Shown piece after piece: positions 7,122 to 10,408 of a stretch of DNA of 64,000 bases. Made by a program: the position numbers and the translations under genes. The stretch is from positions 3,534,001-3,598,000 of the forward strand of contig NZ_CP109090.1 of assembly GCF_035917575.1 (NCBI RefSeq), written 5' to 3'. Position 1 is the first letter of the stretch. The number at the start of each line of letters is the position of its first letter. The notes below the pieces were generated by a model. It had not been told where the DNA came from. It did not search any database and saw only the letters and a program-made list of their open reading frames with translations. Source of the stretch: Streptomyces sp. NBC_01788 (GTDB lineage: Bacteria > Actinomycetota > Actinomycetes > Streptomycetales > Streptomycetaceae).

Positions 7122-7862
7122 TCACATCGACGGGGTCCGGGCGTAGACCCCGCCCTCGGTGTCGAGGACGGTGACCCGGGACACGTAGTCCCAGGAGCCA
7201 CTGCCGGGCTTGACGTCGGCGACGGCGTACCAGGCGCCCCAACCCGGCTTGCCGGGCAGCTCGATGAGCTTGCCCCGCACCGTCCCGTCGGCCGTTTCGA
7301 CCTCGACGCTGGACGCGGTGCCCTTGCCGCCGTAGTACACACCGGAGAGGTAGACACGACTGCTGTCGCCCTCGGACTGCACTCCGACTCCGGGAGTGTT
7401 CCGATCGATGTTGCCGTCGACCACGCTCCGGAACTGCGGCTCGTCGGGCATGGAAGGCGTCGTCCAGTACTTGCCCTCCGCCGTGAGCCACAGCTCGAAG
7501 CCGGGGGCCGCCGTCACGTGTTCACCCGAGGCGACGACACGCGGCGTCGGGGCCGGAGCCGCCGAGGAGGCGGACGGCGAGGGCGAGACGGACGCGGGCG
7601 CCGCGGGAGGCGCGTCGTGGGCGGCGCCGGGTTCCGTGCCGCGCAGCACGACCACGGCCAGCGGGACCAGCAGCAGCCCGCATCCCGCGCCGAGTACGGC
7701 CGTCCGCCGCCTGAGCCGGATCCGCCGCCCTAGGCGCTCCACGTCCGCCAGCGGCAACGGGGAGGGCCTGAGCTCGTGTGCGGCCTCGGCCAGTGCCTGG
7801 CGCAGCCATGCGGCCTCGGTGTGTCCCGGACCTGATTCTGCTTCGGTTCTGGGGTGGTTCAT
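7122..7862 (-). CDS. single-pass membrane protein coupled to a sigma factor, possible anti-sigma/sensor
   Basis: The 246-residue protein has a cytoplasmic N-terminus of about 60 residues (helical, EAAWLRQALAEAAHELRPSP), one membrane helix (VLGAGCGLLLVPLAVVVL), a Pro/Ser/Ala linker and an outside domain of about 145 residues. Its ATG shares the A of the sigma-factor stop TGA (TGATG), so the two are translationally coupled. That layout is typical of sigma/anti-sigma pairs. The outside domain, from TPRVVASGEHVTAAPGFELW onward, is almost identical to the secreted protein at 8519-9145. I did not recognise a named domain. The anti-sigma role is inferred from position and topology, not from a zinc-binding motif, which is absent. 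Confidence 0.75.
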   Translation of the reverse strand: MNHPRTEAESGPGHTEAAWLRQALAEAAHELRPSPLPLADVERLGRRIRLRRRTAVLGAGCGLLLVPLAVVVLRGTEPGAAHDAPPAAPASVSPSPSASSAAPAPTPRVVASGEHVTAAPGFELWLTAEGKYWTTPSMPDEPQFRSVVDGNIDRNTPGVGVQSEGDSSRVYLSGVYYGGKGTASSVEVETADGTVRGKLIELPGKPGWGAWYAVADVKPGSGSWDYVSRVTVLDTEGGVYARTPSM

Positions 7863-8431
7863 CAGCTGGCTCCGGTGACGGGGTGGGAGCGGTCGGAGGC
7901 GGGGGATGCGGCGAAGGCCGCGAAGGCCGGGTGGGAGCGCAGAGCCGCGAGGCCGCGCCGCGCATGGGTCTTGACCGTTCCGAGCGAGCAGTCGAGCACC
8001 TCGGCGATGGCGGTTTCGGGAAGGTCCTCCCAGTAGCGCAGCACGAGCACCGTCCGCTGCCGGGCGGAGAGAGTGGCGAGCGCCTGCGTGACCGCGGCGC
8101 GGCGCTCGACGGACTCGGCGTGGCCGTTGTCCGGCTGATGCACCCGCTCGGGCAGGAACGGCATCAGCAGATGCGTGACCCGTCTTCTGCGGATCCGGCT
8201 GAGGTTGTTGTTGACGAGGGAGCGTCGTACGTAGAGGTCGACGTCGTCGGGCGGGATGCGCCCCCAGCGCGCGTACACCTTGGCCAGGGTGGTCTGCACG
8301 AGATCCTCGGCTTCGTGGTGGTCGCCGGTGAGCAGGACGGCGGTCCGTAGCAGACGGGTCCAGGCCGCACTGGCGTAGGCGGCGAAGTCGGTGCTCCCGG
8401 AGGAGCCTGCGAATCTCTCGTACTGCGGCAC
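7862..8431 (-). CDS. SigE-family (ECF-like) RNA polymerase sigma factor
   Basis: This is a 189-residue group IV-type sigma factor. Region 2 spans about residues 15-85 (TGDHHEAEDLVQTTLAKVYA, then VRRSLVNNNLSRIRRRR). Region 4 lies at about residues 115-172, with the helix-turn-helix PETAIAEVLDCSLGTVKTHA. It belongs to the Actinobacteria-specific SigE-like subfamily, not to S. coelicolor SigE itself. The start is GTG 8431 with a weak GGGA site. It is coupled to the membrane gene downstream. A terminator at 8486-8512 separates it from the secreted paralogue, so its promoter probably lies between 8432 and 8485. Confidence 0.9.
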   Translation of the reverse strand: MPQYERFAGSSGSTDFAAYASAAWTRLLRTAVLLTGDHHEAEDLVQTTLAKVYARWGRIPPDDVDLYVRRSLVNNNLSRIRRRRVTHLLMPFLPERVHQPDNGHAESVERRAAVTQALATLSARQRTVLVLRYWEDLPETAIAEVLDCSLGTVKTHARRGLAALRSHPAFAAFAASPASDRSHPVTGAS

Positions 8432-8485
8432 GAACGCGGTTCCCTGTGGGTCGGGTACGGGGAGGAATGGAGCCGGAGAGCTCCG

Positions 8486-8512
8486 GGGCGGGGGCCGCGC
8501 GGGCCCCCGCCC
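8486..8512 (-). terminator. terminator hairpin after the secreted paralogue
   Basis: An 11-base GC stem (GGGCGGGGGCC, 8486-8496, with 8502-8512) closes a 5-base loop just past the stop codon at 8519. It should limit read-through into the sigma-factor gene. Confidence 0.7.
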
Positions 8513-8518
8513 GGGAGG

Positions 8519-9145
8519 TCAGCGCAGCTTCAGCTGGGCGTAGATCTTGCCCTTGGTGTCGTGGACGGTGATCCGGGAGACGTAGTCCCAGGAGCCGCCG
8601 CCCGGCTTGACGTCGGCGACGGCGTACCAGGCGCCCCAGCCGGGCTTGCCGGGCAGCTCGATGAGCTTGCCGTGTACCGTCCCGTCCGCCGTTGCGATCT
8701 CGACGCTGGACGCGGTGCCCTTGCCGCCGTAGTAGACACCGGAGAGGTAGACGTGGCTGTCCGTGCCCTCGGCCTGCATCGAGACTCCGGGGGTGCTCCG
8801 GTCGATGTTGCCGTCGACCACGCTGCGGAACTGCGGGTCGTCGGGCATGGAAGGCGTCGTCCAGTACTTGCCCTCCGCCGTGAGCCACAGCTCGAAGCCG
8901 GGGGCCGCCGTCACATGTTCACCGGAGGCGACGACACGGGGCGTCGGGGCGGTCTTCTTCGCGGTCGGCCGCAGTGGCGTGGAGGCCCGGGCCTTCGCGG
9001 CGGAAGCGGCCTGGGTCTGCGCCGTTCCCGCCTGCGCGACCGTGGCGTGCGGTGCCTTCGCGGGTACGGCGTACGCCGCTGTGGTCGTCCCCGCCACGGC
9101 GGCGACGACGGCGGCGCAGGCGAGGACCTTCAGCGTCCGTTTCAT
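8519..9145 (-). CDS. secreted paralogue of the sigma-linked membrane protein's outer domain
   Basis: This 208-residue exported protein starts with MKRTLKVLACAAVVAAVAG and a likely cleavage at AYA-VPA. An Ala/Thr/Lys linker follows. The roughly 140-residue C-terminal domain differs from the outer domain of the protein at 7122-7862 at only a minority of positions (for example DDPQFRSVVDGNIDRS versus DEPQFRSVVDGNIDRN). DNA identity across the shared part is also high, pointing to recent duplication or gene conversion. The ATG at 9145 has GAGGAG upstream. Function is unknown. Proximity suggests it is a soluble version, competitor or target of the membrane sensor. Confidence 0.85.
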   Translation of the reverse strand: MKRTLKVLACAAVVAAVAGTTTAAYAVPAKAPHATVAQAGTAQTQAASAAKARASTPLRPTAKKTAPTPRVVASGEHVTAAPGFELWLTAEGKYWTTPSMPDDPQFRSVVDGNIDRSTPGVSMQAEGTDSHVYLSGVYYGGKGTASSVEIATADGTVHGKLIELPGKPGWGAWYAVADVKPGGGSWDYVSRITVHDTKGKIYAQLKLR

Positions 9146-9352
9146 GAACGGGCAACTCCTCTTGGAACACGGACCCCTGGGGGATCCGGAATGACTGGTG
9201 GAAGGAGGGCGCCTCTCCACCCGTTCAAACCCCGCCGGGACCGCTTCCGGATGACACCCCCGCGGGATTTCTTCGCGGAGCGGCTGTGTACGCCGACGCG
9301 CGGCCTGGCGCCGGTCCCGCCGCGCTCGGTGCGCGGCGGCGATAATCGCCGG

Positions 9353-10408
<1,056 letters not shown>

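Follow-up and report, generated by a model that had tools for sequence, protein, structure and literature searches.

The 64,000-nucleotide stretch of Streptomyces sp. NBC_01788 analysed here (contig NZ_CP109090.1, positions 3,534,001 to 3,598,000; referred to below as the window, with coordinates counted from its first letter) contains a three-gene cassette in which a SigE-family extracytoplasmic function (ECF) sigma factor is accompanied by two proteins with the same outer domain, here called D, one secreted and the other anchored in the membrane. The cassette is probably, though by no means assuredly, an autoregulated ECF sigma/anti-sigma system that would chiefly produce its own sensor domain in soluble form. 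Sequence comparison shows the arrangement itself, the linkage of D to the sigma gene, the co-variation of a promoter motif with the sigma type, and an apparent conversion between the two D copies.

The three genes and their common domain

The genes lie on the minus strand in the order secreted protein, sigma factor, membrane protein, with every element where the sequence-only reading of this DNA had placed it:

9145-8519, minus strand: secreted D protein; ATG at 9145; 208 amino acids; Sec-type signal peptide, Ala-rich linker and C-terminal D (8534-8944)
8431-7862, minus strand: SigE-family ECF sigma factor; GTG start; 189 amino acids; TIGR02983 match, Pfam region 2 and region 4
7862-7122, minus strand: predicted single-pass membrane D protein, putative anti-sigma factor; ATG at 7862; 246 amino acids; from N to C terminus a predicted cytoplasmic helical N-terminus, Arg-rich stretch, transmembrane (TM) segment, Pro/Ser linker and D (7137-7547)
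9228-9256, minus strand: conserved promoter-like motif TGTCATCC-N18-GTT, 111 nucleotides (nt) before the ATG of the secreted gene; would be recognised by the cassette sigma factor
9197-9221, minus strand: inverted repeat or hairpin GGTGGAGAGGCGCC..., just 3' of the motif, close to where the transcript probably begins
8486-8512, minus strand: GC-rich hairpin, proposed attenuator, in the 87-nt gap between the secreted gene and the sigma gene

D is the outer domain of approximately 137 residues common to the secreted and membrane proteins of the window. When aligned, its two copies show 86.9% protein and 90.7% DNA identity over the domain, in agreement with the earlier claim that the outer domain of the membrane protein is nearly identical to the body of the secreted protein encoded upstream. 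The repeat extends ungapped over 300 nt at 88% identity, and the in-register identity of the copies drops near the domain edges, at about 7139 and 7550, which indicates that the outer domain alone is common to both proteins. A phmmer comparison of the secreted with the membrane protein gives E 6.4e-78 (5.8-billion database), so that a chance likeness is excluded. In the 8.27 Mb genome of the window strain, D is found twice at E <=0.001, and both copies belong to this cassette.

None of the Pfam and NCBIfam models matches D in the window proteins, and a Pfam scan of 28 membrane relatives likewise gave no match for it. The AlphaFold model of D is all-beta, with 128 residues at a predicted local distance difference test (pLDDT) value >=90. 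Fold searches with the domain, a follow-up already envisaged in the sequence-only reading, return weak immunoglobulin (Ig)-like or beta-sandwich neighbours.

Sigma factor and membrane partner

The window sigma factor scores 179.9 bits against TIGR02983, for which the curated NCBIfam cut-off is 141.55, and both Pfam region 2 and region 4 are present. In keeping with its proposed coupling to the membrane protein, the membrane ATG is located inside the sigma stop codon (TGATG). The overlap between the membrane gene and the sigma stop amounts to 4 nt in 28 of the 40 membrane rows and to 1 nt in three, including the window; the other nine rows have another start or no start called. The automatic choice of start failed for two secreted and five membrane rows, and is odd in a few others.

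Inspected by eye, the secreted copies among relatives begin with a signal peptide, which in the window protein ends in AYA. In the membrane copies the corresponding segment is of higher hydrophobicity; it is located mostly 35-65 residues ahead of D and is preceded by a conserved stretch of the type LREALAEAAYDVTPSxVPLxAIERxGRRxRRRRR. Five of the eight TIGR02983 sigma genes above the cut-off in the window genome, including this one, precede a protein with a short, basic N-terminus and a hydrophobic segment (by eye). The presence of a single cysteine in the window membrane protein makes a zinc motif (HxxxCxxC) impossible. The membrane protein is regarded as a putative anti-sigma factor, which would bind and inhibit the window sigma factor.

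In 18 genomes, the sigma factor, TM segment and membrane D are found in a single open reading frame (ORF); the window genes are separate. The fused ORFs (loci are denoted L and genomes G) are L033:4580-6925, L040:5487-6746, L056:5768-6859 and those of 15 further loci. By eye, the fused proteins show a shortened sigma2-sigma4 linker or an altered N-terminal helix region, and several have lost most of the linker, so they may not act as ordinary sigma factors.

Linkage, completeness and apparent mobility of the cassette

The comparison covered 295 Streptomyces genomes, including that of the window, with 10 candidates scored per genome. D was found at E <=0.001 in 59 of them, and 57 loci were taken from 54 of these; the five genomes left out (G037, G080, G112, G229, G231) have weak matches alone (E 3e-4 to 8e-4). 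Within the 57 loci, a same-strand sigma match is located within 900 nt of 82 of the 87 D matches, with the sigma gene downstream of 31 and upstream of 51 (at L052, one D domain was counted as two pieces). Two of the five unlinked matches score <=25 bits. The sequence-only reading had named a wide occurrence of the domain without linkage to sigma genes as counter-evidence; within Streptomyces, linkage is what was found.

The 57-locus set contains 29 complete triads in 27 genomes. Completeness was further followed after 21 loci from named genomes had been added and identical sigma factors removed, which gave 43 distinct loci in which a sigma factor of >=100 bits stands beside D; the fused sigma/D forms score lower and are not part of this set. 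The triad of secreted D, sigma factor and membrane D is present in 38 of these 43 loci. As for the remaining five, L058 and L092 are at contig ends, L087 and L099 are without secreted D, and L065 is without membrane D.

The surroundings of the cassette differ between loci. When five proteins flanking it in the window were compared with 77 other loci, they were common only to Streptomyces sp. CB01373 (L089), a near relative, apart from one partial match (41%) to a single flanking protein at L080. D also occurs in five Streptomyces plasmid records. Of three such records examined, two (L157 and L159) are annotated as hypothetical protein, SigE family sigma factor and hypothetical protein, with D in both outer proteins, and the third contains a lone D gene in the stretch covered. 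The differing flanks and the plasmid triads suggest that the cassette moves as a unit, as it seems.

Three separate cassettes (L062, L063 and L064) are present in genome G162, with 70-95% identity within and 38-51% between cassettes. Many cassettes and fused forms, including L051, L072, L074, L076, L078 and L080, have a second sigma-like gene on their upstream side, divergently oriented and with about 40-50 bits to the window sigma factor; such a gene was not found near the window cassette. On the plus strand of the window (9353-10408), a divergent ORF of 351 amino acids has a long Glu/Ala/Gly/Thr repeat tract in mid-protein, at about 9635-9990.

Promoter motif and inter-gene hairpin

The exact motif TGTCATCC-N18-GTT is found upstream of 35 of the 36 cassettes with a sigma factor of >=225 bits and of none of the seven with a more distant one, the 225-bit threshold having been chosen after the motif table had been seen. 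Near variants are discernible by eye in two of these seven, L063 and L109. Across loci L032-L109, exact matches are confined to sites in front of a cassette or of a D gene that stands alone and encodes a signal peptide. The latter are found at L102, L104 and L105, and a further lone D gene, at L075, has the motif with one mismatch. Combined with its 5' repeat, the motif occurs in 11 of the 295 genomes, and all 11 places are at a cassette. A relaxed form finds three places in the window genome, one of them the cassette, versus one for a reversed control. This pattern points to recognition of the motif by the cassette sigma factor.

Many relatives have an inverted repeat around GGAGAGGCGCC on the 3' side of the motif. 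The repeat after the motif has another sequence in some lineages and is only weakly foldable in others; it may be an operator, a hairpin at the transcript end or an element of another kind.

According to the sequence-only reading, the secreted gene stands behind its own terminator. A hairpin indeed exists at 8512-8486 and is GC-rich; the terminator itself is less convincing, as there is no T run and the folding of the region does not stand out from that of shuffled sequences (z -1.55, with 17 of 200 shuffles matching it). The independence of the secreted gene is also doubtful, because the sole promoter motif found for the cassette lies before it. The lack of a T run and the unexceptional fold make attenuation within one operon at least as likely as separate units. 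A hairpin between the secreted gene and the sigma gene is present in most loci examined, with a sequence that varies between lineages, and we read the arrangement as one autoregulated operon with attenuation. Locus L099 (5130-5520) is informative in this respect: by eye, deletion of D has cut its secreted gene to the signal peptide and C-terminal tail, and the motif, ribosome site, hairpin, sigma gene and membrane gene are kept. Retention of the motif despite this deletion suggests that the promoter also serves the sigma gene.

Age of the pair and apparent gene conversion

High identity between the two copies had been ascribed to recent duplication or ongoing gene conversion. The former is contradicted by relatives that hold both copies at identities down to 36%; on comparative grounds, the secreted/membrane pair is old and not the result of a recent duplication. 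The latter is supported by the D tree, the approximately unbiased (AU) test and synonymous divergence (Ks). The D tree (81 rows, 139 columns, with many forks open) needs 16 changes between the secreted and membrane labels, at least 13 of them forced by starred branches. Some of these changes come from old splits and not from conversion. A single clade of all secreted D rows was rejected (AU p 9e-153), as was keeping the secreted rows together in the lineage of the window (p 0.005, for a group named after the tree had been seen).

The two D copies are starred sisters in seven loci (L032, L062, L063, L069, L090, L107, L109), and L088/L089 form a mixed clade of secreted and membrane copies. Within these pairs, Ks is 0.03-0.23 in eight of the nine conversion loci. 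The value of 0.66 makes L069 doubtful, so that seven lineages are counted as clear; L062 and L063 belong to a single genome as separate cassettes, and for these two and L109 the set contains no near relative by which to date the conversion. For the window pair, Ks is 0.20, compared with 0.34 and 0.50 for the same-type copies of the window and L090. Collectively, in sequence terms, one D copy seems to have been overwritten by the other in at least seven lineages, including that of the window. To explain this by repeated duplication would not be simple, because signal peptides, N-termini and the promoter motif are common across lineages.

Raw identity gives a narrower result: in six of the 38 pairs the two members resemble one another more than any copy of the same type, and for nine of the 38 membrane copies the secreted partner in the cassette is the nearer one. 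The window pair falls in neither group, as the near relative L089 has the same converted state. Divergence of the two copies in most cassettes indicates that conversion is episodic.

Proposed mechanism and alternatives

In the mechanism considered probable above, short cytoplasmic helices of the membrane protein would hold the SigE-family sigma factor inactive, and binding of an extracellular ligand to membrane D would release it. The freed sigma factor would then fire the TGTCATCC-N18-GTT promoter, as comparative genomics suggests. This would yield much secreted D and, through hairpin read-through, smaller amounts of sigma factor and membrane D, as the gene layout and one natural deletion suggest. 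Having the same domain, secreted D would most probably recognise the same extracellular ligand, and could serve either as an effector (a scavenger or neutraliser) or as a decoy. Feedback would be negative in both cases, as a decoy ends the response and a neutralising effector removes its cause. Conversion between the neighbouring copies appears to have re-matched the two domains in at least seven lineages, as the tree and Ks support; this would be anticipated where effector and sensor need, at times, to retain one specificity. We infer sigma sequestration, ligand-induced release, read-through, ligand sharing and the sign of the feedback.

Several observations weigh against this mechanism. A Pfam and NCBIfam search of the membrane protein recognised no anti-sigma domain, AlphaFold gives its two N-terminal helices low to middling confidence, and the altered linker or helix region makes the fusions imperfect evidence for sigma binding. 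Cassette L087, whose sigma factor scores 233.5 bits, has neither the motif nor secreted D, and the lone D genes L050, L073 and L096 are without the motif although signal peptides are present. Another regulator could use the motif, and transcription could end completely at the hairpin, the sigma gene then being read from a separate, unrecognised promoter. The D tree is built on few columns (139) and carries a long-branch warning. Furthermore, 29 of the 38 membrane copies are nearer to the membrane copy of another locus than to the secreted copy of their own cassette, and identity within a pair is as low as 34-36%; consequently, a common ligand is not forced everywhere.

A more far-reaching version can be put forward only tentatively: the chief output of the sigma factor would be the secreted twin of its own sensor, feeding back as a decoy or autoinducer, conversion in cis would now and then re-match the pair, and the cassettes would constitute insulated, self-specific circuits of extracellular protein signalling, mobile between Streptomyces genomes.

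A protein-autoinducer loop, in which membrane D would recognise secreted D as its ligand and the accumulation of secreted D would switch the sigma factor on (or off), is unlikely. A homotypic ligand of this kind is the bolder case, with positive feedback, and conversion may keep the match and so permit self/non-self discrimination. However, the two copies of several cassettes are only 34-45% identical, so that plain homotypic binding would need frequent rebuilding.

An ordinary ECF regulation, in which the sigma factor drives a secreted envelope or matrix protein, the sensor is a captured domain, feedback is lacking and conversion is passive, also appears improbable. Close direct repeats recombine, which fits a passive process, and the copies have diverged in most lineages. 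A precedent exists in the RsgI sensors of Clostridium thermocellum with carbohydrate-binding domains, where sensor and target have common binding modules (PMC4711584). Such regulation agrees poorly with a triad that stays intact while its flanks change, the secreted gene being retained in 38 of 43 loci. Finally, the membrane protein might act as a receptor or positive regulator and leave the sigma factor, which would be controlled otherwise, unsequestered. This reading fits the failure to find a known anti-sigma domain and the single cysteine without a zinc motif, but is very improbable in view of the translational overlap with the sigma gene and the natural sigma/membrane fusions.

Relation to known systems and significance

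In C. thermocellum, SigI/RsgI systems sense biomass, and the binding module of RsgI resembles modules of the secreted proteins that are controlled (PMC4711584). The autoregulated sigma/anti-sigma cassette proposed here is similar in having a membrane (here putative) anti-sigma factor whose outer domain type is also found in secreted proteins under its sigma factor (PMC4711584, PMC6056542), and in the autoregulation of the sigma factor and its operon with the anti-sigma factor, both of which are proposals for the window. The two differ in that SigI is without region 4, whereas the window sigma factor has it and the membrane protein has no family match, including to the RsgI N-terminal domain. 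RsgI sensors are mostly carbohydrate-binding modules, and reported SigI targets include cellulosome genes at other loci. In the window cassette, unlike SigI/RsgI, the secreted partner is approximately the sensor domain alone, is encoded by the first cassette gene and, in some lineages, has been homogenised by conversion.

ECF sigma factors fused to parts of membrane anti-sigma factors are described for IutY (ECF243) and for ECF48, ECF52 and ECF53 (PMC8999054), and SCO4117 is an ECF sigma factor fused to a membrane part (PMC5826349). The 18 fused D proteins resemble these fusions in that a single polypeptide carries the sigma factor, a TM segment and an outer domain. In contrast to the ECF52 type, in which one protein contains sigma factor, zinc finger and TM segment, the window genes are separate, the membrane protein has one cysteine and no zinc-finger match, and D falls in no named family searched. 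Within the window genome, the partners of other TIGR02983 sigma factors are similar by eye in having a short stretch of basic residues at the N-terminus together with a single hydrophobic segment; their outer regions differ, and D is found in this cassette only. A literature search gave, among the matches listed, no description of the cassette, of D or of the conversion. Sharing of modules between sensors and secreted proteins and ECF-membrane fusions are already known, and we rate this cassette as a variation on such systems.

For most ECF sigma factors of Streptomyces, the signal is, to our knowledge, not known. Here, the apparent output is one soluble sensor-type domain behind a motif-defined promoter, which makes both ligand and feedback testable with a single purified protein. 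The natural sigma/sensor fusions offer comparison material, and the cassette provides a case of apparent repeated gene conversion confined to one domain of two differently located proteins.
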